From Microbotryomycetes sp. JL201 (Eukaryota; Basidiomycota; Microbotryomycetes), in NCBI GenBank assembly GCA_033819885.1, contig JAQYUZ010000013.1, forward strand, positions 124,001-188,000: DNA of 64,000 bases, given 5' to 3'. This document shows positions 2,475 through 62,009 of this stretch, one piece after another. The stretch's first letter is position 1. Each line of letters opens with the position of its first letter. Position numbers and translations under genes: made by a program. Below the pieces are notes generated by a model. That model worked only from the letters and a program-made list of their open reading frames with translations. It had not been told where the DNA came from and did not search any database.

Positions 2475-5343
2475 ATGGACGGCAGCGCGTATCGCTCGGG
2501 AGCGGCAGCGCCGGTCCGAACGCGCGCAAGCTCGCAAACGACCGGGGATCGCACCACACAAGCCGACACATCCCAACCAACCCAGCAACACGCGACAGTA
2601 GAACATCCCGAGGCACGACTCTTGCCAATAGGAACGGCTGCCAACGAGCGCGAGTCGAACGTTCAATCGAGCGACGGCGAGCAAACGCCACGCCCGAGCA
2701 TCATCGTATTGTCCCCGCGACAATCCCCAACGCCCCAACCACATCCCCCTCAACGACCTCTCTCGCCGCATGCACCGGGAGGACCGAGACTGAATCCATT
2801 AAACCGTCCGACGACGCCACCCGATTCGGGCGAAGACGATCCTGCTGACGCGGTCGAGACAATGTTGAGAGCAGGCCTCGCAGCATCAGCTCGCAGACGT
2901 CAGACTCGACCGCGGACGAGACTCGAGCCGAGACCTGCGCGCGTCAACGACTCGACATCACTCGACCGCTCCGAAGCCTTTTCAACCGGTCGCACCACCT
3001 GGACAGAGTTTTTGTCTGGAATCTTCCGAGCAGGCGACGGCGGCGACGAGGAAGGCGATGACGATCAAGGGGCACACGAGCTGGAAGCTTTGTTTGGTCA
3101 GAGAGACGTAGCGTCCTCGTCGGACGACGACGACGACGACTATTGGAACATGGAGTTGTCGGCAACGGTAACAAGGCACAGCGGTGATCGTCCAAGACTC
3201 GAGTCCCGCCCCCCTGACAGCGACGAATCGGCATTATTCGACGAGCTCGGCTGGACAGGCTTGGCGCAGGAGGAGGGCGCACTGGATGACCCGCTGTGGC
3301 GCGTAGGCACGGGAGTATGGATGGTAAGCTGTCATCGCACCAAATACGTCAATCCTCTAGCCTTCTCACTAACCATGTCTGCCTTTGTGTCTGTCGCAGA
3401 ACGAACCTGTCGACGTCGAACGCCGAGATCGCGTTCCCCGAGGTGGCGCTCGCGTGCCGAGTGCCATCACGAACGGATCTCGGGAATCAGATCGCGCCGT
3501 CTCGGTTGGAGAACGAGCTATGCGTGTGTTGCTAGCCGATCCGCGTTCGCCACCGCCGAATCAACCTCGTCGTATTAATGTCAGGCAAGCTTTCGACTCT
3601 GCCACAAACTCTGGGCAGAGGTCGGCCAACAATGATTCCACCGTTTCGGATGCGTTTCTCGAGAGAGGGTATGTCACTCGTCCTCGACCTTTCCCAACTT
3701 TCCGTTCGGGTCGTACGTCTACAGATTCCCAACCGGTTCACAGCCCGAGAACAAGACGTCAAGCGACGACTCATGCTCTCATGGGAAGAACAATGCGCAT
3801 GAAAAGAGACTGCTTGCTGCTGTACTGTGGTGGATCGCCAACCAGATCCCTCGACGAGAATGGAAATGGAGGTCAAGATGATCTGCCACCTGGATTTCAT
3901 TGGCGAGCGGGAGAGGGATCAGGTCCGAAAACAGACTCGACGACGACGAAAGGGTGCGGCAAATTACTTTGCGCAAGAGGCTACGGATCAGATTCAATTT
4001 CTCCGATGAACGGTTTGAGCGTCATGACGCCGCACAATTGGCCAGAACGCACGACCCAAAAGTTTTGGGCGAGTGATGTGCCTGTGAGAGCCGAAGACGT
4101 TGCAGATGTTGGTCAAGAGCAGCAAGAAAGTCCTCTAGGCGTCGCACAGAGGCAGAAAGGGTTCTGCAGATGGTGCAGGAGTCGAGAGATTGGTTGTCGC
4201 GACTGGTCAGTTTGAATGCCTATGTTCTTTCAAGAGAGCGTATAGCTCTGACGCAAACTTTTGTCAGTGGAAACACGATCGGATACCGTGTATTAAAGTT
4301 CTGCGGCTCGTGCCAAAAGTCAAACCACGTCGAACTTGAGGGGATGCTGTGGAGGTTCTGGCAGCACGCCGTGACGAGTCGCCCGCGCCTCGTTGGTGTT
4401 CCACCAGCTTCTCACGTGGATGAAGCGGTGTCTGCCGTTGTGTCGTCCAAGGAAATCAAACCAAATCAAAGCGACAGGCGCGAAAGGATAGAGCCCAAGT
4501 TGCCGGTTCGTGGGGCAAAGATGCGATGGGGCCAGTTGCCACACCCTCAGGCAAGTTCTCTTTCCTTTTGTGTCTGACTGGATCGATATTATCGCGGACG
4601 AGCAGGGCCTGATTCAAGTCCCTTTGCAGATTGATTACGAACATGCCTTGGCCGGGGAACCTCGAGATTGGCTCGATGGGTCAAAAGATGAGGAAGACTG
4701 GTGGCTATCACACAGCGTCAATATCCATTGTCAAGAACGTTTGTCGAGGCGCGACGAGTCGACGGGCGACTTTGGCTCGGACAACACGGTCCTGCCTCGG
4801 AGTTTCGACGGCGATGCTCTCGGTTGGTACGGGGATTTGACCATGGACATGTCATTATCGGACACCTTGGGCTCTTACGACCGTCTGCCTGTTTCTGTCG
4901 AAGCGTCAAACGACTACCAAGGTTTGCGTACTCCAGAACGTCAGAACCCTGGGCTGGAAGATTCGCCTCTTGGTTCGAGCGGCGGCAGCAATTCGTTGCG
5001 CAGATCAGGAGCGATTCGTTTGCCTCCGAGGAGAATGTTGCGACGGTCAAACCGGAGAGACGAAGAGGAGCAACAGAACGCGGCAGGACGAGAACGAGGC
5101 GAGGACGGGTCGGGTCAAGACGGCAGACGAGTCAGGACGAGGTTGGACGAGGCGGGCTCATACAGCAGGAGAGATGATGTTGACGGCGCGTCTTCGGTAA
5201 TCCGTGACGTCGAAGTCGGATACGGTGCTCGCCACGTTGGCAGGACTGACCGTGTGGCTAGGATGCGAAGATTGTCTTCGATGCCGTTCATGACGGAATT
5301 GGATGTCGCAGACACGGCTGGTCAAGCTCGCGCCGGACGTTGA
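2475..5343 (+). CDS. Long acidic protein with a FAM72-like zinc-binding domain
   Basis: Model: 2475-3323, 3400-4205, 4268-4550, 4630-5343, giving 883 aa with consistent phases. The first 280 residues are disordered, rich in Pro/Ser/Arg, with acidic runs (SSSDDDDDDY). A cysteine-rich part follows: CGKLLCARG, then CRWCRSREIGC, then across a splice DCGNTIGYRVLKFCGSC and a WRFWQHAV motif. The spacing resembles FAM72 proteins (CxC, CGN-x-IGY, CxxC, a hydrophobic AV end). The match is from memory and only the second half is convincing. FAM72 proteins are about 150 aa, so the long flanks are odd. The C-terminal third is again low complexity, with basic clusters. The third intron (4551-4629) starts GCAAGT, a GC-AG intron that joins two phase-0 exons. 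Function unknown; DNA-repair links of human FAM72A should not be transferred. Confidence 0.6.
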
Positions 5344-5458
5344 TGGCTTGTTGGTTGACAATTTGAAAGCTGGCTGTTCCTGAACGCGTAGATCTCGTCG
5401 CGGCACCAGTAACCAAACTGTGCATGGTCTCGTACAAGTAGGAGTGGGATTACACTTG

Positions 5459-5965
5459 TCATGCCCTCGATACAACCTTGAATCCTCTCTCTTCGCCTCT
5501 GGCCCTCTCTGAGCCGACCCTGATGACGCTCAAATCTGTTCCGCTAGCCCTGATGCCGCTCCCTCTCCTACCTTGGCCTTCCCGCTCCCTCCACTGCCTC
5601 GTCAAGCTCTTGTGGTCGGCATTTGCAGCGTCAAACGGCTGTACGTGCACGAGTTCTTTGACTGCGAGCAACGCTCCGACGTTTTGAGACGTGTTGGGCA
5701 CGATAGTTGTCGAGAGTCGTTTGTGCAAGCCGAGAGTAGAGCAGGTCGCCTTTACTGATTTGGGCAAATGCAGTGGACTTCTTGTCAAGGTGACTATAAA
5801 GTGCGTCGTGCCGGCGGCCGACGTTGAAGCGACAGGCTCGGCGTCCTGTACCGGTGATGGTGCAGACGTCTGGCGTGTAGTAATTGTGCGTGCTTGTGCT
5901 GCTGCTGAACAGCATGCTGTAGGTCGTATGAACGAACGGACAGCGGCGGCGAGAGCGGCTTGCAT
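5459..5965 (-). CDS. MRPL33: Mitochondrial ribosomal protein uL30m (MRPL33 family)
   Basis: Single-exon gene of 168 aa. After an Ala/Arg-rich N-terminus (MQAALAAAVRSFIRP) that looks like a mitochondrial targeting sequence comes the uL30 core: HFIVTLTRSPLHLP, then LGLHKRLSTTIVPN, then VGALLAVKELVHVQ. This is the beta-alpha-beta pattern of L30 with the conserved 'T..R..I....P.....G.L..VK.LV.V'. A longer open frame runs upstream to 6217, but it crosses the first exon of the divergent eIF4B gene, so I chose the internal Met at 5965. It is a structural protein of the mitochondrial large subunit. The start is only 157 bp from the eIF4B start at 6123, so they probably share a promoter. The C-terminal tail (about 60 aa, Arg/Gly/Glu-rich) is longer than in bacterial L30, as is common in mitochondrial versions. 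Confidence 0.85.
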   Translation of the reverse strand: MQAALAAAVRSFIRPTACCSAAAQARTITTRQTSAPSPVQDAEPVASTSAAGTTHFIVTLTRSPLHLPKSVKATCSTLGLHKRLSTTIVPNTSQNVGALLAVKELVHVQPFDAANADHKSLTRQWREREGQGRRGSGIRASGTDLSVIRVGSERARGEERGFKVVSRA

Positions 5966-6122
5966 TGGCGCGAGTGTGGTCAAGAGTGACACTGTTGCTT
6001 GTTTCGATCTTTGTTGAGGAAGATGACAGTCTATTCGCGGGCTGAGCGAGGTTGGTGTGTATGTGTTTGTGTGGAGAATGCAACCAGAGAAAAGCGCGGG
6101 CGCGTCTTTTCGGTCATCCACC

Positions 6123-7972
6123 ATGGCACCAAAGGTAACGCGCACGCACACACCCGGTTCTCTGTGCGTTAGTTGCTGTACTGACTGTGCTCGCTTGCCC
6201 TCGTGCCTCCCTCGCATGCGCTCCCGTACAGAAAAAGGGACAAAAGCTCGCGCTGGGCGACTTTTTGGCAGACTCGTGTACGTCCATCACGTGCACGCCC
6301 AATGGCATGACCCGGGAAACCTCAAGGCTGATCATATCAACTCCTCTCCCCATCGCTGTTGCGCGTTCGTCTCGCCGTCGCGTCCATCCGCGTGCGCAGC
6401 CACTGGCGGAGGCTCATGGGCTGATGACATGGAAGATTTGCCCACCGGCCGTGAGTAACGAGAGCTGTTCGCTGGGTGCCGAGCGCGTCTGGCTAACTTG
6501 GCCTTCCTCTTCAGCCTCGGGCGACTCGTTGCCGTCTGGACCGGGCTTGGGCGGCTCTCACTTGTCGCGTAACGCACGCGAAGGGGGTCAGTCACCGTCC
6601 ACATGTTAGACATCTGGCTACGGTGTCGCTGACAAGCTGGATCTGCACCACCGGCCCGCAGGCTTTGGAGGTTTCGATAGGCCTGAGCGACCCGAAGTGC
6701 CGTTCCCAAAAGCGCCGCCGTACACAGCTTTTGTTGGCAACCTGACCTTCGAGATTGTTGATGACGACCTGCGCGACTTTTTCAACGGCCTCGAAGTCAC
6801 TTCCGTTCGTCTCGTATCTGGCCAGGACGGACGCCCGAAAGGTTTCGGTTACGTCGAGTTTGCAAAGGCAGACGACTTGCGACAAGCGCTCACTATGACG
6901 GGCATGGACCTCGGAGGACGCGTCACGCGCATCTCGGTTGCCGAGCCAGCTTCCCAACGTGAAGGCCGTGCAGACGCTGAATCGACCTGGACTCGCCAAG
7001 GTCCTCTCGCACCTCTGCCCGGTCGATCAGGAGGTTTCGGTGGCGGATTTGGCGGTGCTCGCTCTGGTGGCTTTGACCGTGCCGGCGAACCCGACGTTGA
7101 GCGCGAAGGCCCGATCCGTGGTGGCAAGTTCACGCCCTCGGGCCCGGCCGAGCCTCGTCGAACCGGCGGATTCGGTGGCGGCGCGGGAGGTTTTGAACGT
7201 CGCCCGTTTGAACCTGCCCCTGAAGTTGAGCGCGACGCGCCCATCCGTGGTGGCAAGTTTGCGCCAACAGCAGCCCCCGCAAGTCGTTTTGGTGGCGATC
7301 GCAAAGAACCTAGCCGAGCGGATGAGGAAAGGACCTGGACAAGGTCCGGTCCTTTGCCGCCTGCGCCTTCCCAACAACGCTCTTCAAGCTTTGGAAAATC
7401 TTGGGGTGACCGCACTCGTCAGTCTTTGCTTTTTGTCGAGTCCGCGATGCACTTTTTACTGCGGTTCCTGACAATTCGTGTTGTTAGCCCCTACCGAGCC
7501 GCCGACAAGGCAGCGACTGCAACTCTCTGGCCGCACCACTGGTTCGAACGAAGGTTCACCTTCAGCCTCGCCCGCTCCCCAACAATCTCGACCGAATCCG
7601 TTCGGTGCCGCCAAACCTGTTGACGTGGCCGAACGCGAACGTGAAATCGAATCCAAACTCGCAAAGGACAGACAAGCCGCCGCTGCCAAAGCCACTTCGC
7701 CTCCACCTTCCGCCGCTGCTGCTTCAAAGACGACTGCGGCGAATGAGAAAGCTCAAGCTTTGGAGGACAGAATCTCTAAAGCGAGATTTGGCAACACGTC
7801 ACCTGCCGCCGCAACCACCGCCGCTCCTGCCGCAGCAAGTAACGCGGCAGACGATGACGAATGGACTACAGTATCGAAAGGAACAAACGCAAATGCAACG
7901 ACAGCCTCAAACGATGAAAAGTCGAAATCGATCGTAACTGACAAGTTTGGAGCGCTCAAACTGGACGAGTGA
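6123..7972 (+). CDS. TIF3: Translation initiation factor eIF4B (Tif3-like)
   Basis: RNA-binding factor that stimulates eIF4A helicase during mRNA scanning. Exons: 6123-6134, 6232-6277, 6400-6450, 6515-6586, 6662-7417, 7488-7972, giving 473 aa; every junction keeps frame and uses GT-AG. The spliced N-terminus MAPKKKGQKLALGDFLAD followed by GGSWADDMEDLP is the eIF4B signature. One RRM follows (YTAFVGNLTF as RNP2, KGFGYVEF as RNP1). Then come repeats with a WTRxGPL motif (residues STWTRQGPL and RTWTRSGPL) and two IRGGKF motifs, equivalent to the 7-repeats of yeast Tif3. An Ala-rich charged C-terminus ends with DDDEWTTV and FGALKLDE. The first coding exon is only 12 nt. It is divergently transcribed from uL30m. 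Confidence 0.93.
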
Positions 7973-20759: not shown

Positions 20760-23756
20760 TCATTCGTCATCGTCAATCGTCCGCAGAGTGAAAGCGCTGT
20801 CCTTGTGCTTTGTTTGCCTCGCCGTTTCTCTGGACGGCAGCTCGTCCTCCCGGATATCCTCTTCGTCCGCCCTAGCTTTCCTCAGTCTGACGAGCAACAT
20901 TGAGCAGAAACTGACGACAAACACGCCAGCGCCGACCCAGAAAATTGTCTCTGGCGCCGTACCGACTGTCGAAATGAAAATCGATCCAAACAATAAAGGA
21001 CCGATGATTGAGCTCATGACGCTCGACAAGACCGACAAGCTGGCGAAAAGGCGACCTGCGTCTCGAGGAGAGGCGTGTGCAAGGGCGAGACTTTGAATGG
21101 CTGGCATTGCTCCGCCGCCGAGGCACGAGAACGCAGTGGCGGCCAAGAATCGAGCAGGCGATCCGCCGTTCAGCGCGAGCATGGCGTACGCTATCATGTC
21201 AATGGCCATCGAGATTCGAGCCAAGAACAAGTCAAAACCTGAATTCGACGAGTGTCAGCTGCGTGTCTGAAACACAGATTTGCATGACTGACGGGAATCA
21301 TGGACAACTCGGAGCCATGTCTCTTCCTTGTCCCATGCCTTTTGTTCGTCTGAAAGCTCGTTCGGATCGCCAGCCGTATCATGCTCAGGCCGAGGACGTG
21401 AAGGCTTCGGAGGGGGTTTTCGAAGCAACTTGATGAATGTCGGCAAAAGGACAATGAGGACGATGACGCGACAGACGCCGAGGAAGCTGAGATACTTTCC
21501 ATTCTGCTCGTAGCCCCAGTCAAAGACATTCGAAGCGTACACTGCATATGAGATCGTTAGGAAGCAGCTTTCAAACATTTCCAAGAAAGCTCACGAAGCT
21601 TGAACGCAATCATGGCCTGATCGGAGACGTTGGAACAATCAGCGCTGGAGTAGCCATCTAGCTCAATGTCTCGCTCTCTCACCATTGCGAGACCGTAGCA
21701 GCCGGCCGCGATACCAATCTTGACGAGAGAAAAGTCCCACCCTTGGGCTGGTTTGCCCATTGCATCAATGACTGGTCTATCTTCTTCCGATTCGTCCAGT
21801 GCCCTTTTGCGAGGTAACAACATCTTGAGCGGTTTGAGAAAGCTCCATGGTCTGACTGCCAACCGTCTCCCTTTGGTAAATATGACAGCTGCCGGTCCTC
21901 GCTCGCGAGCTGCGGCGTCTTCCTCTTTATCTTGCTCTTTGCGCTTCTCGAGCTCGACTCGGTGGCGCTCTCGCGCTTCGTACTGTCGCTCTTTCGTAAG
22001 CGATTCGGGCACGAAAGCAAGAGCGACGATGAGGTACAACAGGTGCATGACCAGCGCGGCATAGAATGGAGCCAACACATTGCCGCTCGCCTTGATAAGA
22101 TAGGCTCCAAGCAGAGGGCCGGCTGCGATTCCGAGAAACATCATGCCTCTGTTCGCTTCTGCGTCAGCCACACTCGAAGACAATGATGGCATGGTGGACG
22201 AACCCTAGGACAGAGAATATACGTGCACTGCAGATGCACAAGGTAAGCGCATTTACACGTTGGTGCCGCGCGCGGCTTACCGAGACCCCGCTTCAGTGCA
22301 ATCGGACAAATAGGCGTTTCCGGTAGCTTGTGCGGTGCTATGGCACAGACAACGTCAGCTTTCGCTCAAGTCTACTCCTTGCTGGCTGATGCTTACGCAA
22401 AACCGCCCAGCAAGCCGTCGAGAATAGGTCCCATGAAGAGGAAGCGGTAGCCGACGACGTCGTGGAAGGCAACAGTCCTGCGGTGACCCTGATCAGCGAA
22501 GGTTCAGGCACCGTATGTCAGTGTACGTACACGAGAAAGACAATATCCATCAAGTTAAGTCCGAGGAGGGCGGCTCCCAGCACAGGCTTCCTGCCGTGGC
22601 GGTCCGACAGCGATCCCCACCAGCCGGTTGTGAGCGCCGATAGGCAGCCCATTACAAATGTCAGGAGCGTGTTCTGCGGGTATCAGCCCAGTCAGTGCCA
22701 ATTGGTCGAGAAGCCTTGTGGAGCATAGACGTGCCAGCGATGTGACAGCCTTTGAAACTGTTGCCGATTTGTGGCATTGCTTCATCCATGACTCGTCGTC
22801 GCCTGAATCGTCGATAACGAGTTTCCACCGCGATGATCGAGCTGGAGGCGCCGGGATCGGCAACTCGGACGGCTGGTGCGGCTGAGGTAAGTCTATATCC
22901 TCTGGAGTGGACAGGGACTTTGCGATGAAGGCTTGCACAACATCGACATCCCTAGAGCTTGAGTGATACAAGGTCGCTGTCATGCTTGGCGGCAAACGCG
23001 ACCGACCTGGATCAACTGGTGGTGGCACGACCACGGGATCGCGCGCCGGCATGGTTTGCTGTGGTCCGATGGCCTTGCAGACGAGCTGATAATAGATCTC
23101 TAGCTTCGGACTCGAGGTTGCGCTCATTGACAGCGTCATGATGAGCGTCCCTGGGATGAACCAGATTGGCGAGGGGCGCTTGTGCCATGGTAGGCGGTCT
23201 CGCTTGCGGTGTCCTGCAGGTCATTGGCGTTAGAGATACGAGTCTCGACCGAACACAATGTTTGCACTGACGCGATCGCGAGCTCGATCCTGTCGAAGCA
23301 ACAGGCATGGATCGTCAGCACTCGCTCTGGGAGGTCACGTGCCGCTTCGCCGCTCGGCTGCTGCCACCTCGCGGTCAGCGCTCGAGGCGGCCGCATGGAC
23401 TGACGGCTCGGACGCGCGAGATCGTCGTCGCTGAGCTCGCTTTCTGTGTCTTGACCATTCAGTAGTGACTCTGACTCGTCTCTGGCGAGTGCCGAATGTG
23501 TTGTGTGGTGCTCGGATCGGGTGCCGTCGTCTGTCAGCACTTGTAGCAACGACGGGCGCGGACTGTGGCTCGCAGACCGCCGTTGGCCATCTGACGGGCG
23601 CAGAGACTGGTTGTGTGGATGCAATAGTCTGTCCGCGAGTACGCTTGGCGGCGTCTCGTACACGGCTTCCTCCGTATTGGCGCTCGGAGGCAACGTCTGC
23701 TCAAACAGATCGGGCTCGACAGGCCTCTCGGCGCGCTCTTGCGGGTGCGCCGCCAT
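20760..23756 (-). CDS. MFS transporter (TetA/ZRT-like, drug:H+ antiporter type)
   Basis: Membrane transporter with 12 predicted helices spread over about eight exons. The first 130 residues are a disordered cytosolic head (Ser/Glu-rich). The first membrane segment is WFIPGTLIMTLSMS, followed by KLEIYYQLVCK, as in tetracycline-resistance-like fungal MFS proteins. Motif A appears as GWWGSLSDRHGRKPVLG. Further pieces are VVGYRFLFMGPILDGLLGGF, ATGNAYLSDCTEAGS and GMMFLGIAAGPLLGAYL (motif C-like). A basic central loop (EARERHRVELEKRKEQ) follows, then the C-terminal half ending SIIGPLLFGSIF and FVVSFCSMLLVRL, with an acidic tail. Junctions I checked use GT-AG. The exon between the head and helix 1 (around 23150-23280) could not be phased with confidence. 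Substrate unknown. Its start is 245 bp from the divergent GEP4 start. Confidence 0.8.
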
Positions 23757-27744: not shown

Positions 27745-28792
27745 TTACGTCTCGTCCATCGCAGATGTGTCTGTACTCTGTTGTGGAGGAGCCGCTTCCT
27801 CGATTGTCTGAACCGCCTTCTTGGACTTTCTTCTAGACCTGACTCGCTTCCTCTTCTTCTTCTCTGTGATTGCTACCGACTGGTTTCCTTGAGCTGGATT
27901 TGGCATTGTTTCTGACGCCTCATTTGATCTGTCTCCGAGTGGCTGATTTGGGACGGCGAGATGTTTCTTGCTCCGCCGAGCAGGCCGTTGCGATCTACAA
28001 GCCATTTGACCGTTAGCTGCATTCAACTGATAATAAAGCATGACTAACGTGAAGCCGGGAAACTTTGCAAGAACTCTGGACGGCTTGATTGTCAAAACGA
28101 CGACAAGGAATGGCGTGTGTCGCATTCGGGGTCTGTACAGCGTTGTGATCAGTCACCTCGTAGTGTGTTCAAACTCGAACCAGGCCCACCGCTTGTTGGA
28201 CCCAGCCAGACCTCCAAGCCATTGCAATGCGAGTCGTTCTTGCCTTGCCTCGTCCGATTCTTCCTGTCCGTCGCTAAACCCGACGTCCTCGAGTGCACCG
28301 AGGTACATATACTGATACAATCCGAGACCTTGCTTGCGCTTGCCCTTTTTGTCTGCCGGATCGTCGATGGGCGTGAATTGTCGTTTGATGATTTCGGCAA
28401 CGGAGACGAGTTTGGCGAGAGTTGCGCTTTGGGTCGCGGATGCTTTTTTAGGCGGTGTCTCCACCTGACTCGGGTCAGGAATTGGAAGAGGTGCTGCCGT
28501 GGACGTGCTCGGCTGTGTTGAAGTGAGAGGCCCGTCCGACGAACGACAACTTGGCCCTGTCAAAGGCAGAGTGTGCAATACGACAGGCACTGCAGGAGCC
28601 AGCTGCATACGAAGGGTCAGTTAGATAACAATCCATTGCAGAAAATGAGAACGAGAGCGTGCTCGCCTTGAGTTGGTCTTGCGCCTGTTGGATCAGCTTG
28701 TTCATCGCAGCCTGCATCGTCACGCGAAGCTCATAGTGCTCGAATGCGTCCGGTAAAAGCGTTTTAAGAGTTGTGTTGCCCTCGTGCGACAT
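27745..28792 (-). CDS. Alba-like nucleic-acid-binding protein (Rpp25/Pop6-like)
   Basis: Four exons. The first is 28667-28792, the second begins at 28602, and the later junctions are ACTACGAG/gtgact and GGCTTCAC/gttagt. The N-terminal piece LLPDAFEHYELRVTMQAAM and, later, SATLAKLVSVAEIIKRQF fit the Alba fold (AxxKAVxVAEIIKR), as does the hairpin strand TPFLVVVLTIKPS. A disordered Ser/Pro insert of about 50 residues sits between the first strand and the helix. The tail is strongly basic (KKKRKRVRSRRKSKK) and probably nuclear. Fungal Alba-like proteins of this type are subunits of RNase P/MRP; for this gene that is inference. The first intron (28603-28666) begins GCGAGC after AAG. No GT in the neighbourhood gives a workable frame, so it is a GC-AG intron. 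It is divergent to the BRCT gene, 132 bp away. Confidence 0.6.
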
Positions 28793-39923: not shown

Positions 39924-41560
39924 ATGAGAAACTCGTCTGATGAATGGTTGAAGAGACTGCAAGCTTGTCGGCCGATCGACCCGGTCTTGTTTCGTCACCA
40001 CGAGCTCGAGTTTCCCGATCTCAAAGACTCGACATCGGACTTGGCCACTGACGAAAGCCGAGTCGGTCGAGAAGGATCTCTTAGAGGATTGGTACACTTG
40101 GTCAGGAAAGACAAGCTGCATCGCCAACAGGTGAGATCTAGGGCTCTTCTTTTTTGGCTTGGCCGCAAACACTCGTTCCTCACGATGCCAAATGAGAGTT
40201 GAGGGTAAATTCTTTCTGCGGTACAGGACCAAGTGCACCCGAGGTGGAAGACTCTCATTGCAACATGTCGAGGAACAGATCCGGTGCTTGAAGACGAGGC
40301 GAGTGTTCTCACCCAGTCGCGAACTGGATCGTGACTGCACTAAGACTTTTTGCATCGGTGACAGTACATGCCGTTGGACGTGAGATGGGGAATGCACGTA
40401 CTGTTTAGCTACAGCTCGGCAGGCGAGCTATCTAAGACGAGGGTTCTGAAGGTGCATAGACGCCCCCAAAAAGGGAATGAGTCTGCAGGAGCTAACAAGG
40501 CGGCTCGGTGGACAGGCTTTCGAGCAATGGTCAAAGAGGACAGGAAGACGGTTCAACTCTACTCGGCACGCCCACATCCAGATAATGCACTTTGTCAAGA
40601 AGTACTCAAGTCCGTTATGGATTGCTTTCAGGATGCCGACCGCTCTACTCGAGTGCTGACAGACTCTTGCAAACCACAGTCAATGTCTCCCCGGAGGAGC
40701 TTGCAGAGCCAGACCTGAATGCCTACCGCACCTTCAACGAGTTTTTTCACCGCCGGCTGCATCCTCTTGCTCGAAGCTTGGCCGAGCCCGGCAACGACGC
40801 CGTCATCTCGTCTCCGGCTGACTGTAGGATGGTCGTGTACGACAATGTTGACCTGGCGCGTCGCTTATGGATCAAGGTGAACCCAGAGAAATTCTCCAAT
40901 CCACACACATTTGACAATTCAAGGGCTGTCAGGGAAGACACTTTACGCTGAAAGGATTGCTTATCGATTCGACACGCGCCGAGTACTTTCGAGGCGGCTC
41001 AATCGTTGTCGCGCGTCTTGCTCCAGCAGACTATCACCGCTTTCATTCGCCAGTCGACGCCGATTTGATCGGAAGCGTGCCTGTTAGCGGGTCATTGTTG
41101 ACCGTTAATCCTGTCGTTGTCAACAACAAACAATTTGATGTGTTTACGAGTAACAAAAGAGTGGTGACGTACTTGCGAGCTACGAGAACAGGAGAGATGG
41201 TGGCGTTTGTGCAGGTCGGTGCGTTACTCGTGGGCAGTATTGAGCAGACGGTGCAGCCGGGGCAGCCTGTACACAGAGGCCAAGAGCTCGGTTACTTTGG
41301 TACAGTCGACCGAATGTCCGAGACTGTGTACCGGAATCCGTACTGACCCTCCTCCTTTAGCGTACGGTGGATCGACCATTGTGATCGTGTTCAGGCAAGG
41401 ACAAGTCAAGTTCGACCAAGACTTGTTGTGCAATTCGCTCGAGTCTATCGAAACAAAGATCGAGGTGCGTGAACGTGCAACAAGGTGAATTGAGGCCTAG
41501 AGCTCAGATAGGTATTCTTGAACTTTGCAGGTCAAGGATAGGATTGGGTCGTTTCTTTAA
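39924..41560 (+). CDS. PSD2: Phosphatidylserine decarboxylase (PSD2-type, GGST)
   Basis: Converts phosphatidylserine to phosphatidylethanolamine, with a pyruvoyl group made by self-cleavage. Placed exons include 39924-40130, 40227-40298, 40365 onward, and a last exon 41531-41560 (VKDRIGSFL). Motifs: YRTFNEFFHRRLHPLAR, ISSPADCRMVVY, then after a splice GRHFTLKGLLI, GGSIVVARLAPADYHRFHSP (catalytic His), VGALLVGSIEQTV and GYF/AYGGSTIVIVF. The cleavage site reads GGST, as in Psd2-type enzymes, not LGST as in mitochondrial Psd1. No C2 domain or targeting peptide is seen in the 70-residue head. The second intron (40299-40364) begins GCGAGT: a GC-AG intron joining VLEDE to YMPLDVRWGMH in phase 0. 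The section 40440-40640 contains one very short apparent intron and is less certain. Confidence 0.85.
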
Positions 41561-41747
41561 GCTGATAGCGAATTGTGATGCAATACTCTCGGTCGTTTAT
41601 GGGGCGTGCACTCGTTCGAATGTAATTTCGCGAGCGCCGTTTTCCTTTGCCCTTTGACCGCACTCGTTCGATGCGCTCGTGTCGCGGGCGGTAACACGAC
41701 CGGGCAGAGGCCGAGCTACTGGAAGCTCAGAAGCGAGCATTGACGCC

Positions 41748-46016: not shown

Positions 46017-49000
46017 ATGGCACGGTTCGGCCTGAGCGACTCTGAATCAGAGTCGTCGACCGATGGGCGGCGAGCCTCGTCGTCGACCTCGGCCGCCGCC
46101 GCCGCGAGCGAACGCCCGTCACCTTCGCCGTCGACGTCGTCTGCAGCGCAGCACCAACATCGACCCGTCACCCGCTCACGGCGGCAGCAACAGCAACAAC
46201 GGACGACGCGGCAGAGCAAACTCAAGCGCGCCGAGGATGCTGCAGAAGCGCCGCCCCGTGCGTCGCTCGCCTATTCGGACGAGGACAACGACGACGAGGA
46301 CAATACGCCGCAGATGGACCAGGACAGCGATCAGGAAGACATGTCTGACCACGACAGAACCCAATCCTCCGGCATGGACGAAGACGAGGACGAGGACGAG
46401 TCGCTCAACAGCGTCGATGGCGACGACGACAACGAGCAACTTGACGAGACGGGCAGTACTAGCACTCGGTCGACATCTTCGAGCTCGCAACACGTGACCG
46501 CCCACAGGCCAGGGCCCAGGCTACCGCAGCCGTGGGGCCCAAAGACACTCAACCTCGAACCCAAGCGCGTTGCAGTCATGCAGGCCAGCTTCTTCCAGCA
46601 GCCACAAGTACTACAAACGGGCGCTACTGTCAAGCCGGACGCAGCATTGCCAGTCCGCAACCCATTTCAAAACACGAGTAATTTGCCTGAGCACGCCAGC
46701 TCGTCTTTTATGGCTGTCAGTACAACCACACGTCGTTTTTGCAAGAGCCATGCTCACAAAACTTTTGCAGACTCGACCGGCACACTCGCCCCAGGTCAAC
46801 GCCCCCGTGGCAGCGCCCCCGATCGATCCGACGCCGTTCAGACAGCTGCGCGAGTACGAACGAGTACCGCTCTCGCGCTCAGTCACACATAATAGGCAAG
46901 GCGATCTCGTCGATCTCGGCCTCGCTTTTGGACGGTCGTTCAAGCCCAGCTGGGGCCCGCATGGCGAAATCGTTCACTTTGGCGCTCTGTACCAATCAAA
47001 AGCGCAAAATAAGGCTAACGAGCTCATGGTCGAGCAATTAAAAACAACGCAGGTTCGCCAGTCTCCTCGAAATTCCAAGTCTCTGCAGTGATCCTTGCTG
47101 ATGCCTTTATCGTCTGTTGCAGTCTTTCAATGTTCAGCTTGCAGAAGAGACTTTGCATCTACAGCTTCAACATACCTTGATCGAGGTCGACCAGAATTCG
47201 TCTGCACCTGTCGCAACTCCGGACGATAATTTGCGCTTCCACCACTTTGCCTCGTCGCTACCAAATTCCGACAGGTCAACGGAGGCGCACCTCTGGAGAC
47301 TTGGACATGCCTTGTTTGACGAGATTGCCGACCTCGACTTGCCTTTGCCGACAGATTCGGCTGCAACCGATTCTACCACGGCGCGATATATCGAATCGCT
47401 CAGGAGACGAGGCCGCCTCGAAGCATGGTTGGCGGACGTGGTGCGGACTGACGTCGAGGAGGATTTGCGGTCAATCGGTGGCAGCATATCCGAACAATCT
47501 TCCGCTTCCGCTGGCGCAAAACGTGTTTTTGCATTGCTGACGGGTCATCAGATTGAGAGGGCCTGCGAGGCTGCTGGCGATGCTGGCGATCTCCGATTGG
47601 CGACGCTAGTAGCACAAGCTGGTGGGGACGACGACTTCAGAGAGGACGTGTTCCTACAACTTGCAAAATGGAGAGAATATCGCGTCGACTCGCACATTGA
47701 TCCGGCTCTACGGAGGGTGTACGAGTTGCTGTGTGGCAACTTGGGAGTGTCAGAGGGTCGAGCAAAAGGCGACGTTGTCGACGACGTTGCAGAGTTTCAC
47801 GTGGCAGAAGGACTTGACTGGAAGCGAGCTTTCGGCCTGCACTTGTGGTACGGCACGTTTCAAACTTCGGTGGCGACAGCGGTAGAGCGGTACGAGGCAG
47901 CGTCCAGTCTCGCTGCAGACCGTGTTGCCCCACCGAATCCGGAATACGTCCTGCAGTCAACGTCAAAAGCTGAGGACAGCGAGACGCGTTGGCGCAACCT
48001 GGACAGGGAAACTGGTCCGAGCGATCCGCTGTTTCAACTCATCAAATTGTTCACGTCGTCCACTCACTCGCTCGAGGAAGCATTGCTGCCTCGCAACTTT
48101 AGCTCGTCACCTTTGGATTACCGGTTACCTTGGCACTTGTACATACTCTTCTCACGTGTGCTTCGCAAGCGGGATTTCGAAGACAGGGTCATCGTCGGCG
48201 CAGAGCAAGGCAGCGACGACGCCATGAACGATGGCAATATTGAAGGCAACAGCGTTAGGGCAGACATGATGACGGAATCGTACGCTACGCAACTTGAACT
48301 GGCGGGACTATGGCAGTGGAGCGTGTTCATCTTGCTTCACCTCGAACTACCAGCTGGGTGAGTCGTGACGTGTGGGCGGCAGCATGCTGTTGGCGCTGAC
48401 GGCAAAACTGCGATCAGACGAGAGACTGCCATTCGTCAAATGTTGACGCGACACGCTGCCGAACTTGACGACGATGTCAAGTTTGGTTTCCTGGTCGACA
48501 CATTGCACGTTCCAGCGACTTGGATCTACTCTGCCCAAGCGACGTACGAGCATTACCGAGGCAATGTCTTTGCCGAGTTTAAACTGCTCATCATGGCCGA
48601 GCAATGGTCCGCCGCTCACGAGATCGCAGTTCTCGAACTCGCACCAGAAGCCGTCGTCCGTGGAGATCTACTACTCGTCAAAAAACTATTGGAGCCGTTC
48701 AATCCTAGACGAGTGCCTGATTGGCAAGAAGGTGCTCAGGCAAGTGCATTTCTGTTTTTCAATATCGATGAAAGCGGCTCATGTGATCTTTGACAGACAT
48801 ATCTCGATTACGCTTCTTGTCTCGAACAACAGATATCGGCGCAGAAATCAACTTCGACAGCTGCATCAACGACACGGTCACTCGTGCTCAAAACGATCGA
48901 CTCTGTCCAAAAGTTGGCAACTACGAGTCGATCTTACCACAATTCCAAGTTCAAACTCGCAATGACGGAAATGCTGAGTCGATTAACGGTCGTTTCAAAA

Positions 49001-52906: not shown

Positions 52907-55543
52907 CTAGAAGCCCAACAATGTTGCCACGTCTTCCTTTGATCGCCTCAGCAACGTCGACTTCGCCTCGTACCTGTTTCGATCGTCCATTATGGCATCG
53001 AAAACGTCACTGTACGCCTTGCTGACCCGATCCAGCGCTGCACGGTGGATCAACGCGGCGTAACGTGGCGGCAACAACGAAAGTCGGGGAGAAGACAGCG
53101 TATCGACGGTCGAGAGGAACTCTGAAAAAACAGACAGCGCTTGAGACACCATCTGAGGCGATGTAGCCGAGAGTTGAGACAATGGCGCCTGTACGATAAG
53201 CTCGTCAGTAAAAGTCTGATCCGCGGTCCACAGGCTCGTTCCTCACGTCGGCATCCTTGTCATGCATGGCCGACACGATAGGCTTCAGGCCAGAGTCTTC
53301 CAACAAATGACCAAACTAGCACCACACAAAGCGGGTGAGCGGGCCGCCGTGCGCCTCCCGACGAATAGACTACTTACGTGCTCGACCGTCAGACTTTCGA
53401 CGTGGACAGCTTCCTCTTCTTCTAAGTTTTTGACTCTTGATGACGTGAAACCAAAACCCTCTAGTGCAGTCAAGCATGTCTCGATGCAATTGACTTTGAA
53501 AACCGCCCGGTCCCATTCGCTGGGCCTTAGCTCTGCCATCTTGTTGCACATGTCAAGAGCCGGATCCAATGCAGCGTCAAGAACGTCTTGAAACTCGGTT
53601 TCACGTTGCTTGAACGAGACTAGTTCGGCGTCGTCAAGCAATGAGGACGAGTAGACGGCCATGATCTCGCGCAAAGTTGCCAGCGACTCTCGAAGCTGCG
53701 TCGGTGGCGAAAGTGCCGCCGCGGGTGGCTGAGACAGGAATTTGTCAGCGATGCGCGGTCATATCTGTTCGTACAGCCCGTCGGCGCACCTGGATGAAAC
53801 GCAGCAAAGATTTGGCCTGTGCAGACAAGGTCTCGAAAAACGCGCCATACGCGCTGTCTGTGATCCTGCAGACACGTTGACGCGTCAACCGTGTATCACT
53901 GATAATTTGGCATTTCCACTCACTCTGCCAAGACTTTCGACATAAGCGCGTCTTCGCCGATCGTCCGCTCCATTGTTACGCGGTAAAAATGAATCAAAGT
54001 TGCGATTCTGTAGGCCATGATGCTGCCCTCTTGACTCTTGATTGTCTGTTGCACTCGAATCTTGAGGGGTCGTCCGCACGCTTCCATGTCTTTGTCGAGC
54101 AAAGCCCGGAGCCTATCCTCATCGTCTTCTTCTTGATGACCACCTTGCTTTCTCTTGTACACTCGAACGCTACCAACCCACCGACCATCCTCTTTGATGC
54201 CAAAGAGACTTTCCAAGAACTCGCGCTCGGTGGCCATCATTTGATGAATCCAAGCGAGCATGTCTCCCACGTACCGAATCGGATCGTGTGCATGGAGTTC
54301 GATAGGTCGAGGGAGACCATTTGGCCCTCCTCGTGTCAATGCATCGAGGAACAAGTTCAGAATGGCGGTCGATCTTGTCGTGCCCAACAATGTCAGGACC
54401 TCGCTGCGGAACGAACACTTGACGATCAGAATGACTGATGTATGCGCTCCTAACAAGTCGAACTGACTTGAGCAAATCTGGTCTCGCTTTCAGGCGATAA
54501 ATAGCAGCGCGCATTGTAGAGGACACTTCGAGCACGTTCTTTTTAAATCCTCGGGCCTCAAAGCTGCACCATTTGAAGATTTTGTTGTACCCGGCTTCCA
54601 ACTGCTCGCTACTGTACTCCATGATGTCCATGCTGATGGATAAATAGACCGCGTCGGTCAGCAATCGAGGAAGCCTTTGATACATGCAACTGCGAGCCTG
54701 ACCCTGCCTGCGTCCCTTCGCCGAGCTCGCCGCTGAGTAACGATCGGCAATCTCTTCGTATCCGCTCAGTCTTGTCCATGGCTGCAAACAATTCTGGACC
54801 AACCGGCACGTCTTGTGAATTGAGCGCTCGAACCTCAGCGTCCGAGAGTGTGAATCGCGTCAAAAACAAGTGCACGAGCGACTGCTGAGTTGTTGCCGTT
54901 GCGCTGGAAACATGACGAGGCCAAGTCAGATACTGCAGGAGAGCTTGCATGCGGCGCGACGATAGCAACTTGCCGTTGTTGCCTCAAGCCCTCGGCATGT
55001 TCGAGCAAGTACTTTGTGCCCGTGTTTGCTTTTTCGAGTTGAGCTTGGACCTGGTCGCAGCATACGTGCATGGCGTCCAAATGTGACTGCAAGACACTTA
55101 ATTTCTGCACGGACGCACGCCACGTATGTCAGCGGCGGATAGTTTAAGAACACGACCAGGCGAGTTTGTCCTACGTCGTTGACTTGACCGAACGCTTCCA
55201 AGAACTCTTGACTGCCTTGAGCCATCTTGTTCTCGACTTGTTTGCGCAGTCCGCCGCGTTTCAGTGCATGTGGGCTTGCTCGTCGATTGCTCGCTTGCGC
55301 CGTCGTCGTCCCTGCGGCGACATTGCCATCTTCGCCGGTGTCGTCGAGCTGAAGACGATCATTCTGAAACTCTCCGAGCGTGTCGAGAGCGGCCTTTGTG
55401 CCTGCGTCGTCAAAGTTGGCGCTCAAGAGGCGGTTGACCTTGACGAGGAGCGGATTGCGAGACGATGCAGACGACGATGGCACAGAGTAAGACATGATAG
55501 ACCCATGTGGTGACAATGACGGCCGCTCCGGCGCCGCTGCCAT
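52907..55543 (-). CDS. COG6: Conserved oligomeric Golgi complex subunit 6
   Basis: Subunit of the COG tether (lobe B) for retrograde intra-Golgi traffic. The start MAAAPERPSLSPHGSIMSYS is followed by the family hallmark RNPLLVKVNRLLSANFDD and AALDTLGEF. Then come the N-terminal coiled coil (KLSVLQSHLDAMHVCCDQVQ, YLLEHAEGLRQQR) and a helical body: SLVHLFLTRFTLSDAEVRAL, YQRLPRLLTDAVYLSI, KIFKWCSFEARGFK, PIRYVGDMLAWIHQMMATER, GSIMAYRIATLIHFYRVTME. The C-terminus is around RRSKEDVATLLGF at 52907. It is split into about ten exons, only some of which I phased. The body matches COG6 in order and spacing. It is head to head with thymidylate synthase (236 bp). Confidence 0.87.
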
Positions 55544-56999: not shown

Positions 57000-57965
57000 T
57001 CATGCTTTTGTGTCTTTCGTGTCTTTCGTAGTCTGCTTCGACTTGCGAGCCGCCTTCATCATTTCGAGCTTGCGCTTGAGCGCGGAAACTTTTTCGTCAG
57101 CCATTTTTTGCTCGAGCTCTTCTTCTTCTATCCTCTGCATAATCTCCTCTTTCTCTTCTCTGTCGATTCGTGCCAGGCGTTCTTCTTCCGTCTCTTCCGT
57201 CTCTGGCTCTTCATCGTCCGCTGGCGCTTGTTCATCGTCCTCGCCCTCTACCTTTGGCGCCCCAAATTCGTACTCTACGGGTGCCGCAGAGATTGTTGCA
57301 GATGGTGCCGTCGTCAAAGGTCCATCGTTCGGACGAGTCGGTCCTTCGCGCAGAGCTGCTTCGAAAGCAGCCCACTCTGGGTCGTCACCTTCTGCTGTGC
57401 TGTGGCCGTCATGTGCGCCGCCGTCAACCTCATCGTCTTCGTCGTCACTCTGTTCCTGTGCGACAGGTGCCTGGCTCGGATCTGCGAAAAAATCCGAAGG
57501 CAAACCGCCTTTCGTGACGCTAGATGCTGCTTCGCCAGCTTGCGTATCTTGCTGCTCTTGACTGTCATCTCGCTTCCTTTTGGTCGCATTCTCGTCTGAG
57601 GAGTCGTGTGCTTGTCCATCTACATCACTACCAGTCTCATCCAACTTGCGCTTCTGTCCGGACACGCGTGCGCCTTCTGCATCCTGTTGCTGTTGCTGCT
57701 GTTGCTGCTTTTGTACGTTTGAACGATGCGCCTGTCATGTTGTGAATGTCCGTGTCAGTCTGGTGGATGCGTCGCTGTTTCGCAACGCCGATGAACAGCA
57801 GACACTCGCCTTTGACTGCAGATGCGGGCCAAACAAGGCGGCCGACTTGATTTGGACGTGGCAGATGTTGCAGCTGAGTTGACCTCTGGCGTCGTACCTT
57901 GCGTTGGGGTGCGTCAGGCGAGCAGACGCTTGCTTGGCCTTGATCAACGCTTTCAGGTCCGGCAT
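57000..57965 (-). CDS. ZNF830/CCDC16-like C2H2 zinc-finger protein
   Basis: Exons 57810-57965 and 57000-57731 give 295 aa. The start MPDLKALIKAKQASARLTHP NARYDA is followed by LSCNICHVQIKSAALFGPHL and, across the junction, QSK/AHRSNVQ, completing a matrin/U1-like C2H2 finger (C-x2-C-x12-H-x5-H). A run of eight Gln follows, then a basic GQKRKLDE, an acidic middle, GLPSDFFAD (a motif of this family), and a C-terminal coiled coil (EERLARIDREEKEEIMQRIE, KRKLEMMKAARKSK). ZNF830 proteins associate with the spliceosome (XAB2/Syf1 complex) and the DNA-damage response. The intron (57732-57809) begins GCGAGT after AAG and ends ATGACAG, a GC-AG intron with phase-0 borders; no GT donor fits. Confidence 0.8.
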
Positions 57966-58316: not shown

Positions 58317-59540
58317 ATGCTGTGAGTTTTGACAACCCTCAGCAAGCGAGTAACGCGTTACTGCGCGCGTTTTAGAACCTTAGAACGGGCACACAGGCCC
58401 GAGCTCAATCCAATTCCGCTGCGGTGGAAATATTCGTCGAAAGGTGTGACGGGAAACGTGTCGACAACGGGCTTGCCGCGCGCAGACATATACGCGCTGT
58501 CTGCCCATGACAGCCGAGACCGACGCTGATCACCCCGAGTATCGAGCAAGACACAGGAATCTGACACTGCCTCCCAATCTGTTCGCAGGCGAGAGTACAA
58601 GGTCGTCGTGATGCAAGTGAATCCTCATTATATCGCATACGTAATTCTGACAAGAATTTTGGCGCTCATAGGGGCAGCGGTGGCGTAGGCAAATCTGCCA
58701 TCACCGTCAGATTCGTGCACAGCTTGTTCGGTAAGGCTGGCAAATGGTCTCATTCAACACTAGCTACATGCAGCAATTTGCTGACTCATAGTGACCTTTC
58801 CTCAGTGGAGAAGTACGGCAAGTCCCTCTTGTGCTCTCATTCAACAGCCCTCGTATGCCCTCGAAGCTGATATCCCCGCTATGCGGTGGCAGACCCGACA
58901 GTCGAAGACAGCTACAGAAGGCTTGTCACAGTCGACAACATTACGGTGTCTCTTGAAATCTACGACACTGCAGGCACTGAACAATTCATGGCCTTGCACT
59001 CGATGTACATGAAAAGCGGTGACGGTTTCTTGCTCGTATTTAGCTTGACAAATATGGAGAGTATCGCAGAGCTCAAGAGCGCAAGTCTGCGAGCTTGAGC
59101 AGCACGAAGGATGCGGAGAAACTGATTCGGTTTCTTGCCTGGTACAGATTCGGGATCAGATCAACAGGATCAAAGAAGTACCTACAGGCAGAGTGAGATT
59201 CGAACATTTCCGGCCTGTCCCCCTCGAACACCTTGCTCACGTTCGTGTCGGCATGCAGCGAGTTCCACTCGTACTTATTGGCAACAAATGCGACTTGACA
59301 AGTGAAAGACAAGTTCCACGAGACGTAGCTATACGCTTGTCACAAAGTTGGGGAGGCGTACCTTATTATGAGACGTCGGCTCGAAGAGAGATCAACGTTC
59401 AGGACGTTTTCGAAGACATAATCAGGCAAATGATCAAGGCTGGAGCCGGTGGAGGTGCTGGGAGATCGAGAATGGACGGATCGGGCGCACATGACTCTGA
59501 AGGAAGGAAAAAATCCAGAAGGAAATGTACAATATTGTGA
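58317..59540 (+). CDS. RSR1: Rsr1/Bud1-like (Rap1-type) Ras GTPase
   Basis: Polarity GTPase. Seven coding exons: 58317-58321, 58589-58612, 58672-58730, 58806-58817, 58893-59080, 59148-59192, 59259-59540 (204 aa). Spliced sequence: MLREYKVVVMGSGGVGKS (P loop; Rap-type GSGGVGKS), then FVEKYDPTVEDSYR (effector loop), IYDTAGTEQF (switch II), GNKCDL, ETSAR, and a Lys/Arg tail KKSRRKCTIL. The CaaX ends in Leu, predicting geranylgeranylation, and CTIL is the same ending as yeast Rsr1. Rap-type switch II has Thr after G, as here (GTEQF). Three of six introns are GC-AG, starting GCAAGT at 58613, 58818 and 59081. The first exon has 5 coding nt and the fourth 12 nt. All seven pieces are needed to make a standard Ras fold. 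Confidence 0.9.
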
Positions 59541-59940
59541 TGAAGCTTTATGGGGAACAAAGGTGGCGCTAAGCTCCGGTAGCGAGAACACTTGAATGTG
59601 GACAGCAGAGACGTCTGGGTTTCTAATGGGACGACTTTTGTCATGCGATTCCTTGCTGCATGGATGCCCAGACAGGTTGAGGTCGATAAGCTGCCTGCCT
59701 GTTGTGGCGGGCATTCCGGCGAACGGTGCGAAATAGCAGAGCCGAGATCCACAAATCAAGTGCAAGTGCAGCGACATGTCGCGAGGCTTCGCCGGTCGCG
59801 GACACACGGCAGAGCGTTGACGCCTCGTGGATCATGTAGTTCTTTCCCAGATGCGTCAACGGAGTCTCCACGGTAAGACATTACAACATTGAAACACGAT
59901 GGACTTGATGGGTATCCCTTCTTCGAGTCAATGTAAGGTC
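59541..59940. other. Convergent spacer between RSR1 and the CBM1 gene
   Basis: About 400 bp between two stop codons (59540 plus; 59941 minus). Antisense and sense open frames of 70-95 codons here have no recognisable content. No repeat seen. Confidence 0.4.
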
Positions 59941-62009
59941 TCATTTGCCACACACAGAGTTGCACTGCACAGACAGCATTGACAATCAGCTTCAGACGAG
60001 GACAAAAGAACGCGCGATCCAAACCAACTCACAACTGGTCGCTGTCCACCTTCGCCGTAATGCTGATTGTAAGCGTCGAGCTGTACCCACGTCACACAGA
60101 AACCGTTAGGGAACGCGGCCTGTGCCAATCCCCAGTCAAATGTCGATTTTCCAATATATGCTCCACCCGGCTGATTATTGTACGGATCGAAATGCATGCC
60201 AAAGGACTGTGGAGTCCAGTTTGATCCAGGGTTTAGATACGTTTGTCCTTTGGAGCTGTCGTATTGAGAGCACGGTATCGCTTGATAGTTGACATGGCCG
60301 TTGGCTTGGAACGTCGTGCCAACGGGAAGGACGACACCGCTCGGAGTGACGGAATAAGGAGTGCACGAATCGGATCCCGAACCGGCCGTGCAGGTTTTTG
60401 TCGGAGCTGCTGCACTTGATGTCGAAGTGCTCGATGCTCTCGTTGTAGTCGTTGTCGCGCTCGATGGTTGACATTGGCTGTAGAAAGCATTTGAAGCGAT
60501 ACAAGAGTAACCTGAAGGGCAGCACGTTGCGCCTAACCAAGCCAAGCCGCCGCACTGGCCCCAAGCACCGGCTGAACCCGAACACGCAGGCAGGACAGGC
60601 GTCGTTTGTGTCGGTGCCGCGCTAGAAGTAGTGCTGCTACTTGTCGTCTTGCTTGTCGTCGAAGTAGACGTCATCGAGCTGGTACTGCTGCTCGAGCCAC
60701 TGCCAGCCAAGCATTGCGAGTACGAGGCCGAACTGAAAGTGCAAGTATACCCGGACTGGCAGCAGTTCGAGTAGCCGGCAGGTAGGATGAAGCCAAGACC
60801 GGCACATTGAGCCCACGCGGGCAGAGGATTCGTGCACGTAGACTGCGGTGGCGGCGCAGACGACGATGTCGTTTTTGTCGAGCTGGACGGAGATGTGGAA
60901 GGCGCCGATCCAGGCACGCACTGAGAATACCAGTCATTAGAGTAGGAGCAGTAGTATCCCGAGGTGCAGCTCTGACACCCTGTGTAGCCCGAGCCTCCAC
61001 ATTGCCCATAAGCTGCAACAGAGCAAGCCGGTGCAGAGCTAGTTGGAGCAGCTGAAGTTGACGTGGAAGAAGATGTTGGAATTTTTGATGTCGTGGAAGA
61101 GGTCGTTGGCGCCTGGGAGCTTGATGGCGCCACGCTTGAAGCTTTCGTCGTTGACGAAGAGCTCTGCGGTGAACTCGAAGCAGTCCATGGGAGGTCGGAT
61201 TGGGCGCCAATCACACAGCTTGACCACCACTCTGAAGATGCGACACATGCAGATCCAACTGGGCCTGCAGAGACAAGAAGGTCAGCAACCATAGGAAGGA
61301 AGTTGACTGTACGATGAACTTGCAGCATGTTGATCCGGTCCATCCAGAGCCACCACACCTGTCATTGAACGCATTCGTACAGACTGTAGTTGAAGGTAGG
61401 CACTGCGAGTCTGGTTGCAAAGCTCTGTGAGCCCGAGAACTCTTGTGTGCCTCGGGAGAAAAGCTCACAATAATCATTCGAGTACGTGCATGTCCACCCA
61501 GTTCCACAACACATTGGACTGCCGTTGTTAAAGCCAGTCCCCGCACATTGACCATAGTTGCTAGCTTGCCCCGAGCACGGAATGGCAGATGCCTGCGCAC
61601 GCTTGGCCGGTCGCTCGCTGCGATGGTCCCAATGCCATGCAGCCTGACGCGGATTGGTCACTTGACGTTTGCGAATGTGCGACCCGTCGTGTCCTGTCCA
61701 TCAAACCCCATGAGAAAGAACGTTCTTTTGTCAGTGTTCCCGCCGTGACGAAACTGAGACCTCTGATCCTTCTCGACGCGCTCGGGCCTCAAAAAAGTTA
61801 GGCTTACCTCGCAGGCCCCGCCTGTGTGCCATGTGAGGTCGTGGTGCGCTCGCTGCATGGCTCGAGCGATTTGTAACGTTTCTTGGCACCTTGACGAGCG
61901 CATCATACGGCACGAACGCCCGAAAGTCGTTGTCTGCAGTCCTACGATCCGCCGTCGTCGCAGTGGCGACGGTCGCCAAAAATGCGATCGCAAGCACGCT
62001 CACAGTCAT
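59941..62009 (-). CDS. Secreted protein with five CBM1 modules and a novel C-terminal domain
   Basis: Exons (minus): 61808-62009, 61469-61693, 61324-61410, 60033-61264, 59941-59964; 589 aa. Signal peptide [20 protein letters not shown]. The propeptide-like stretch holds two dibasic sites (RKR, AKR) fit for Kex2. Five fungal cellulose-binding modules (CBM1) follow; each has the Q/R-C-G-G/A-G...C-x-Y/W...C pattern, for example [15 protein letters not shown] and [15 protein letters not shown], with aromatic residues near the end (YYSQCL, EWWSSCV, WYSQCV, SYSQCL, FYSQCQ). Ser/Thr linkers separate modules 2-5. The C-terminal 115 residues ([68 protein letters not shown]) match nothing I know. The last exon (CNSVCGK) adds two Cys. 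Intron 61265-61323 starts GCAAGT and restores CBM1 number 2. Confidence 0.85.

Follow-up and report, generated by a model that had tools for sequence, protein, structure and literature searches.

GC-AG introns are predicted to make up about one in eight introns in the basidiomycete Microbotryomycetes sp. JL201

We analyzed a 64-kb stretch of the genome of Microbotryomycetes sp. JL201 (contig JAQYUZ010000013.1, positions 124001-188000; 54.6% G+C), hereafter the window, in which a first-pass annotation had marked eight introns that start with GC. JL201 is an unclassified, yeast-like member of the Pucciniomycotina with an assembly of 17.15 Mb in 92 contigs. Gene prediction indicates that about 12-14% of spliceosomal introns in JL201, or about one in eight, start with GC. 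The first-pass annotation had put GC-AG introns at about 1% in most fungi, in line with the mean of 1.009% reported for 130 fungal genomes (PMC7072748); the predicted excess in JL201 over this mean is about twelve-fold. These are probably U2-type introns that are read by a canonical U1 small nuclear RNA (snRNA), with the mismatch at donor position +2 offset at neighbouring donor positions.

GC donors are over-represented among predicted introns

We identified introns in a 264-kb training and counting sample that comprises the window and 20 pieces of 10 kb, taken at fixed offsets from the ten largest contigs (about 1.5% of the genome, a non-random sample). The gene finder was written for this analysis; it is self-trained and combines a codon-periodic Markov model with donor, branch-point, acceptor and length models. 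It was run in two main forms. In the 16-way model, signals were trained first on GT donors alone, after which all 16 dinucleotides were allowed at equal weight. In the GT+GC model, which allows GT and GC donors, we obtained 433 GT and 73 GC introns.

The first pass of the 16-way model called 479 introns, with 301 GT donors, 43 GC donors and 5-17 calls for each of the other fourteen dinucleotides. At convergence it called 505 introns (353 GT, 59 GC), and each of the 14 control dinucleotides received 3-12 calls (mean 6.6). GC calls thus lie about five-fold or more above every control. The score rise from adding GC to GT was 379, compared with 165 for the next best dinucleotide. Across 11 settings the control-corrected share of GC among predicted introns was 12.0-14.6%, which agrees with the one-in-eight ratio of the first-pass annotation and, as a prediction, with its expectation that the genome-wide share would be well above 2%. 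The corrected share remains 12.0% when the window is left out (raw counts 44 GC and 290 GT), so the excess is not confined to the window. If the true rate were 1%, 47 GC introns among 394 (rounded control-corrected counts) would have p = 7e-35; the 95% interval of the share is 8.9-15.5%.

In an exact-site margin test, a margin of at least 3 left 127 GT and 15 GC sites, with 7 for the remaining dinucleotides combined; at a margin of at least 6, there were 33 GT and 3 GC sites, and no sites remain at a margin of 10. Pairwise models that allow GT and one further dinucleotide gave a score gain of 782 for GC and 229-469 for the controls, with 13-53 control introns each. The pairwise models probably overstate noise, because a true GC intron that is denied its donor can land on a wrong site. 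We therefore took the noise estimate from the 16-way model.

The eight GC introns of the first-pass annotation

All eight GC...AG segments listed in the first-pass annotation are present in the sequence where it placed them, with GCAAGT donors in five, GCGAGT in two and GCGAGC in one:

4551..4629, plus strand: GC-AG intron, donor cagGCAAGT, in gene model 2475-5343; donor chosen by both models
28603..28666, minus strand: GC-AG intron, donor aagGCGAGC, in gene 27745-28792; both models
40299..40364, plus strand: proposed GC-AG intron within a PSD-like region; in frame on translation, predicted by neither model, not confirmed
57732..57809, minus strand: GC-AG intron, donor aagGCGAGT, in the C2H2 (zf-met) finger of gene 57000-57965; both models
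58613..58671, plus strand: first of three GC-AG introns in an RSR1/Rap-like GTPase gene, in the P loop; GT+GC model
58818..58892, plus strand: second of the three, in the effector loop between KY and D; GT+GC model
59081..59147, plus strand: third of the three; GT+GC model
61265..61323, minus strand: GC-AG intron, donor gctGCAAGT, in a CBM1 domain; donor picked by the 16-way model

Seven of these have support from a gene model or from homologs, the exception being 40299-40364. Of the eight donors, four are found with the 16-way model and six with the GT+GC model, or seven when the two are combined; neither model is superior across all eight. A CTRAY branch-point-like motif begins 18-27 bases before the 3' end in seven introns, and none is found there in 40299-40364. 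The first-pass annotation also held that the introns join exons of conserved domains. This stands for the Ras GTPase, the CBM1 domain and the C2H2 finger; for PSD at 40299 it was judged by eye only. PSD-like stretches occur across several frames of the plus strand at about 40300-41600, without a confident gene model, and this region contains either many introns or a decayed gene.

The RSR1/Rap-like junctions (58613, 58818 and 59081) align gap-free with Rap1b and with the 91% identical annotated protein of the relative NB124-2. All three introns are in the GT+GC model; the 16-way model predicts no gene at this locus. The RSR1 protein of JL221 (P0002) carries a 19-residue insert that starts with GKS at the site of intron 58818. 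Judged from the protein, this insert would fit an unspliced GCAAGT intron. Among the 120 RSR1 relatives listed, of 646 in total, no entry bore the name JL201.

Splicing at 28603-28666 yields a product with 100% identity to OIV83_002725, a public JL201 protein, so this intron is already present in the public annotation. Its junction is gap-free against NB124-2, and distant relatives of the gene carry PF01918. The zf-met match (22.3 bits, cut-off 21.2) covers residues 31-54, with the 57732-57809 junction after residue 52. The fragment joined at 61265-61323 matches CBM_1 with 34.5 bits (cut-off 20.6); here the GT+GC model takes a GT donor instead, which breaks the CBM1 motif. The protein at 59941-62009 on the minus strand contains several CBM1-like repeats with Ser/Thr-rich linkers between them. 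At intron 4551 both models take acceptor 4605, not 4629, and the acceptor is thus ambiguous while the donor is supported.

Homologs agree with predicted GC junctions

Residue-by-residue comparison with homologs agreed with 15 of 16 GC junctions in seven genes. These are RSR1 (3 of 3), Vps26 (1 of 1), proline iminopeptidase (3 of 3), SSL1 (2 of 2 testable), a STE20-type kinase (1 of 1), an HDAC (4 of 5) and the gene at 28603 (1 of 1). The exception is the HDAC intron at residue 810, which is a false call of the gene finder because the JL201 annotation and the relatives shown (12 rows) retain the stretch as exon. Nine more GC junctions lie inside Pfam matches (CBM1, zf-met, COG6, Zn_clus, L16, two in DinB_2 and two in CRAL_TRIO). 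The Pfam test covered ten proteins, three of which gave no tested GC junction: the matched segments of KRR1 and an MFS protein did not span one, and a THUMP-like protein had no family match. In SSL1 and in a Sec14-like gene, the first predicted GC intron falls outside the conserved parts.

These junctions join coding exons in frame with a GC donor and an AG acceptor, as expected of U2-type GC-AG introns. The tested genes were picked for having predicted GC introns (24 of the 73 in the GT+GC model, plus the CBM1 one), and the tests therefore speak to the precision of the calls and not to the share. Twelve GC and 12 control junctions picked at random and inspected by eye do not enter these counts. 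The GC junctions are presumably used in RNA.

The public JL201 HDAC protein (P0121, compared with our model at L020:531-4093) is missing an exon of 12 residues at one GC intron and retains 23 intron residues at a second, where the other 11 rows shown match the GC model. Similar errors may be present in further public proteins from this clade.

Could the true share lie near 1%, inflated by the first-pass reader and by the gene finder? Each control dinucleotide does collect some calls, and one tested GC call was false. Against this, GC calls outnumber those of each control by a factor of about five or more, GC introns have GT-like lengths, the share is stable over the 11 settings, and homologs agree with all but one of the tested junctions. 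We find an artefact of this kind barely credible.

The first-pass annotation had placed about 65 introns in the window; the models place 102 (16-way) and 104 (GT+GC). Its list of GC introns was incomplete, as GC introns account for 14 of the former and 21 of the latter, 11 of them common to both models. Four of the GC introns beyond the original eight are as follows:

1567..1629, minus strand: GC-AG intron, donor GCATGT, in the catalytic loop of the STE20-type kinase, between HRDVKA and ANVLL; GT+GC model only
22674..22734, minus strand: predicted GC-AG intron, donor ctgGCACGT, in an MFS transporter gene; both models, reading frame only
48740..48796, plus strand: predicted GC-AG intron, donor cagGCAAGT, in a Nup96-domain gene (Nup96 in the open reading frame 47102-48361); both models
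54904..54973, minus strand: GC-AG intron, donor acgGCAAGT, in COG6; both models, inside the COG6_N match

The junction at 1567-1629 is gap-free against STK25.

GC donors depend on the base at +3

We compared GC and GT donors in the GT+GC model unless the 16-way model is named. A is found at +3 in 42 of 73 GC donors (58%) versus 106 of 433 GT donors (24%; p = 5e-8), and C in 5 of 73 versus 98 of 433 (23%; p = 0.001). The shared donor matrix favours G at +3, which means that the gene finder does not impose the excess of A on GC introns. G at -1 is found in 59% of GC and 46% of GT donors (p = 0.06), and no difference between GC and GT was detected at -2, +4 or +6.

The GC:GT ratio varies with the four bases at +3 to +6. 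It is 23:18 for AAGT, 10:23 for AAGC, 10:71 for GAGT, 6:55 for GAGC and 0:61 for CAGT; the converged 16-way model gives about 20:19 for AAGT and 2:62 for CAGT. GTCAGT is the second most frequent donor (61), and GCCAGT is nearly absent: the GT+GC model has 0, the 16-way model 2 at convergence, and the range across settings is 0-3. GTAAGT is under-used, with 18 seen and 41 expected from independent positions.

The ratio of GCAAGT to GTAAGT is indistinguishable from the C:T ratio of the introns (p = 0.64). Such a match would be expected if base composition alone were responsible, with mutation or biased conversion toward G+C making GT into GC without any special tolerance. The GC-AG share is also reported to rise with G+C in extreme algae (PMC3033335). 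The G+C content of the window is only 54.6%, however, and that of intron interiors about 53%, and the authors of the algal study describe the correlation as weak below the extremes (PMC3033335). Composition also does not predict the preference of GC donors for A at +3. We consider it an unlikely explanation.

GC introns otherwise resemble GT introns. Median lengths in the converged 16-way model are 63 for GC and 62 for GT introns, control medians scatter over 56-122, and 47 of 59 GC introns have a RAGY tail. CTGAC is the branch point of 59% of GC introns, compared with 43% of GT introns (p = 0.01). The predicted pairing of the donor with U1 averages -2.9 kcal/mol for GC and -5.1 kcal/mol for GT introns, and this weaker pairing could be taken to mark the GC introns as a regulated subset that is poorly spliced. 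If anything, though, the GC introns have the stronger branch points, and several of these introns interrupt a catalytic or binding motif, such as the kinase loop or the Ras P loop, so that their retention would disrupt the protein. This makes a poorly spliced subset very improbable.

Other explanations of the donor pattern were tried and rejected. U12-type introns do not fit, as the donors are GCRAGY and the branch points CTGAC rather than ATATCC-like and CCTTAAC; a U6atac search was silent, as were its controls. GTCAG donors and CTGAC branch points, which could in principle pair, are not associated (49 of 103 versus 178 of 403, p = 0.58). Very stable GT donors make up 10.4%, compared with 17.3% in column shuffles (0 of 300 shuffles as low). 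A detection threshold can mimic such a deficit, and for GC donors alone the spread of U1 energies is no narrower than in shuffles; selection against over-strong U1 pairing therefore enters only the more far-reaching proposal below.

The splicing machinery appears canonical

We searched for a changed U1 with Rfam and by DNA similarity and found none; the sole U1 locus found has the 5' end ATACTTACCTT, with the canonical pairing stretch. Its folding energy is unexceptional (z = -1.65). A DNA search with the U1 gene for an additional copy with a changed base returned one place at E up to 10, although a very divergent copy could escape this search. The first 60 residues of U1-C align gap-free to human U1-C, and the LUC7 and Prp8 stretches that we found look ordinary. 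In the modelled U1-C gene (L022), three donors are GTCAGT.

The U6 snRNA has the canonical ACAGAGA. Two U2 snRNA loci were identified, at G000:C10:211142-211332 (L026, 136.2 bits) and G000:C42:45080-45268 (L027, 109.1 bits), one on the complementary strand, and both contain the GTAGTA stretch that pairs with the branch point. The U6 gene (L024, G000:C63:52479-52661, 48.5 bits) contains a 67-base GT-AG insert, GTAAGATT...ATTAG, between ACAGAGAA and GATTAGCATGG. U6 introns are known in red yeasts.

A rival reading is that changed machinery reads GC donors specifically, through a divergent second U1, a modified base in U1 or an altered protein of the U1 snRNP (small nuclear ribonucleoprotein). 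For Aureococcus and Micromonas, canonical U1 alone was no sufficient explanation to the authors, who named base modification or U1 proteins (PMC3033335). The 23% of GT donors with C at +3 are likewise unusual. The U1 locus, the U1-C start and the LUC7 and Prp8 stretches in JL201 give no sign of such a change, however, and GC use tracks the base at +3, as expected of a tolerated mismatch. Changed machinery therefore seems rather unlikely.

A proposed tolerance of a mismatch at +2

The proposal that best fits these results, and which we consider probable, is that ordinary U2-type GC introns are read by canonical U1 with compensation. The GC introns share length, AG acceptor and branch-point motif with GT introns, and the single U1 snRNA found, which is canonical, would most likely recognize them. 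A C at +2 forms no pair with U1; this loss would be offset where +3 (A), +4 (A) and +5 (G) pair well, and perhaps also by G at -1, which shows a trend. In a good context C and T at +2 would be used about equally, and a second mismatch at +3 would hardly be tolerated. Because nothing was found that replaces the lost +2 pair, tolerance with compensation is the simplest reading. In line with the relaxed or specialised 5' splice site suggested by the first-pass annotation, the donor is relaxed at two positions: about 12-14% of introns have C at +2, and 23% of GT introns have it at +3, but the two rarely occur together.

Several points weigh against a high GC share explained by compensated U1 pairing. 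Raw shares in the margin test are slightly lower, with 15 GC sites among 142 at margin 3 and 3 among 36 at margin 6. Prediction noise is real, as seen in the mean of 6.6 calls per control dinucleotide and the false HDAC call. The GC introns were recognized by gene prediction and homology, in the one fungal genome covered by this pipeline. Compensation is significant at +3 only, and predicted U1 pairing of GC donors is weaker. Finally, the U1 locus scores 31.1 bits, below the Rfam cut-off of 69.5.

A more far-reaching form of this proposal, which we advance tentatively, is that donor +2 is effectively a pyrimidine site. Beside AAGT at +3 to +6, C and T would follow intron composition, and most of the constraint on +2, supposedly a near-invariant base, would have been lost under a canonical U1. 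U1 pairing of donors as a whole would then be kept at an intermediate strength: a donor would be weak at +2 or at +3 (GCAAGT, GTCAGT, GTGAGT) but rarely at both, and the perfect GTAAGT would be under-used.

Relation to other genomes

GC-AG shares of 39.6% in Aureococcus anophagefferens and 22.2% in Micromonas pusilla have been reported; both have a canonical U1, and the origin of their GC-AG introns was described by the authors as an enigma (PMC3033335). JL201 resembles them in a share far above about 1%, a canonical U1 5' end and an unexplained cause. It differs in that these algae have 65.9-69.5% G+C, whereas JL201 is a basidiomycete without this very high G+C content (54.6% in the window), and in its lower share and visible dependence between +2 and +3. 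Compared with the minority GC-AG introns of ordinary fungi, those of JL201 are of the same U2-type, with GC donor and AG acceptor, but are about twelve times as frequent (PMC7072748). Eurytemora affinis and Oikopleura dioica likewise have many introns of one non-GT type, but these are GA-AG introns for which a U1 variant was suggested (PMC7072748), and we found no U1 variant in JL201. JL201 thus joins the known GC-AG-rich genomes with canonical U1 and adds a clear +2/+3 dependence.

Hamamotoa singularis and Rhodotorula minuta are basidiomycetous yeasts related to JL201. Comparison of mRNA with gene identified GC-AG introns in bglA of both species (1 of 18 and 1 of 21 introns, respectively; PMC9142197). 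These introns are of the same kind as in JL201, but they come from one gene per species and give no genome-wide share. Together with the single JL221 protein insert, these single published cases hint that the trait may belong to the lineage.

Fungal U3 genes are reported to contain two non-GT-AG introns (PMC5832005). In a Glaziozyma/Glaciozyma protease paper, 8 of 18 introns are reported as non-canonical, TT-GG being an example of their borders (PMC4100274); these look like misplaced boundaries and we did not use them as evidence. In the portion of the Microbotryum genome paper available to us we found nothing on donor types (PMC4469406). Among the papers that our literature searches listed, we recognized none that gives a GC-AG share for Microbotryomycetes or Pucciniomycotina, and a fungus with a high share may sit in the per-species supplement of PMC7072748.

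Gene predictors that expect GT misread genes of this kind, as in the public JL201 HDAC protein. If RNA confirms the predicted junctions, JL201 would be a fungus with a 17-Mb genome in which about one in eight introns relies on a GC donor. It would then allow a direct test of how a canonical U1 copes with such donors, a question that has been open since Aureococcus and Micromonas.

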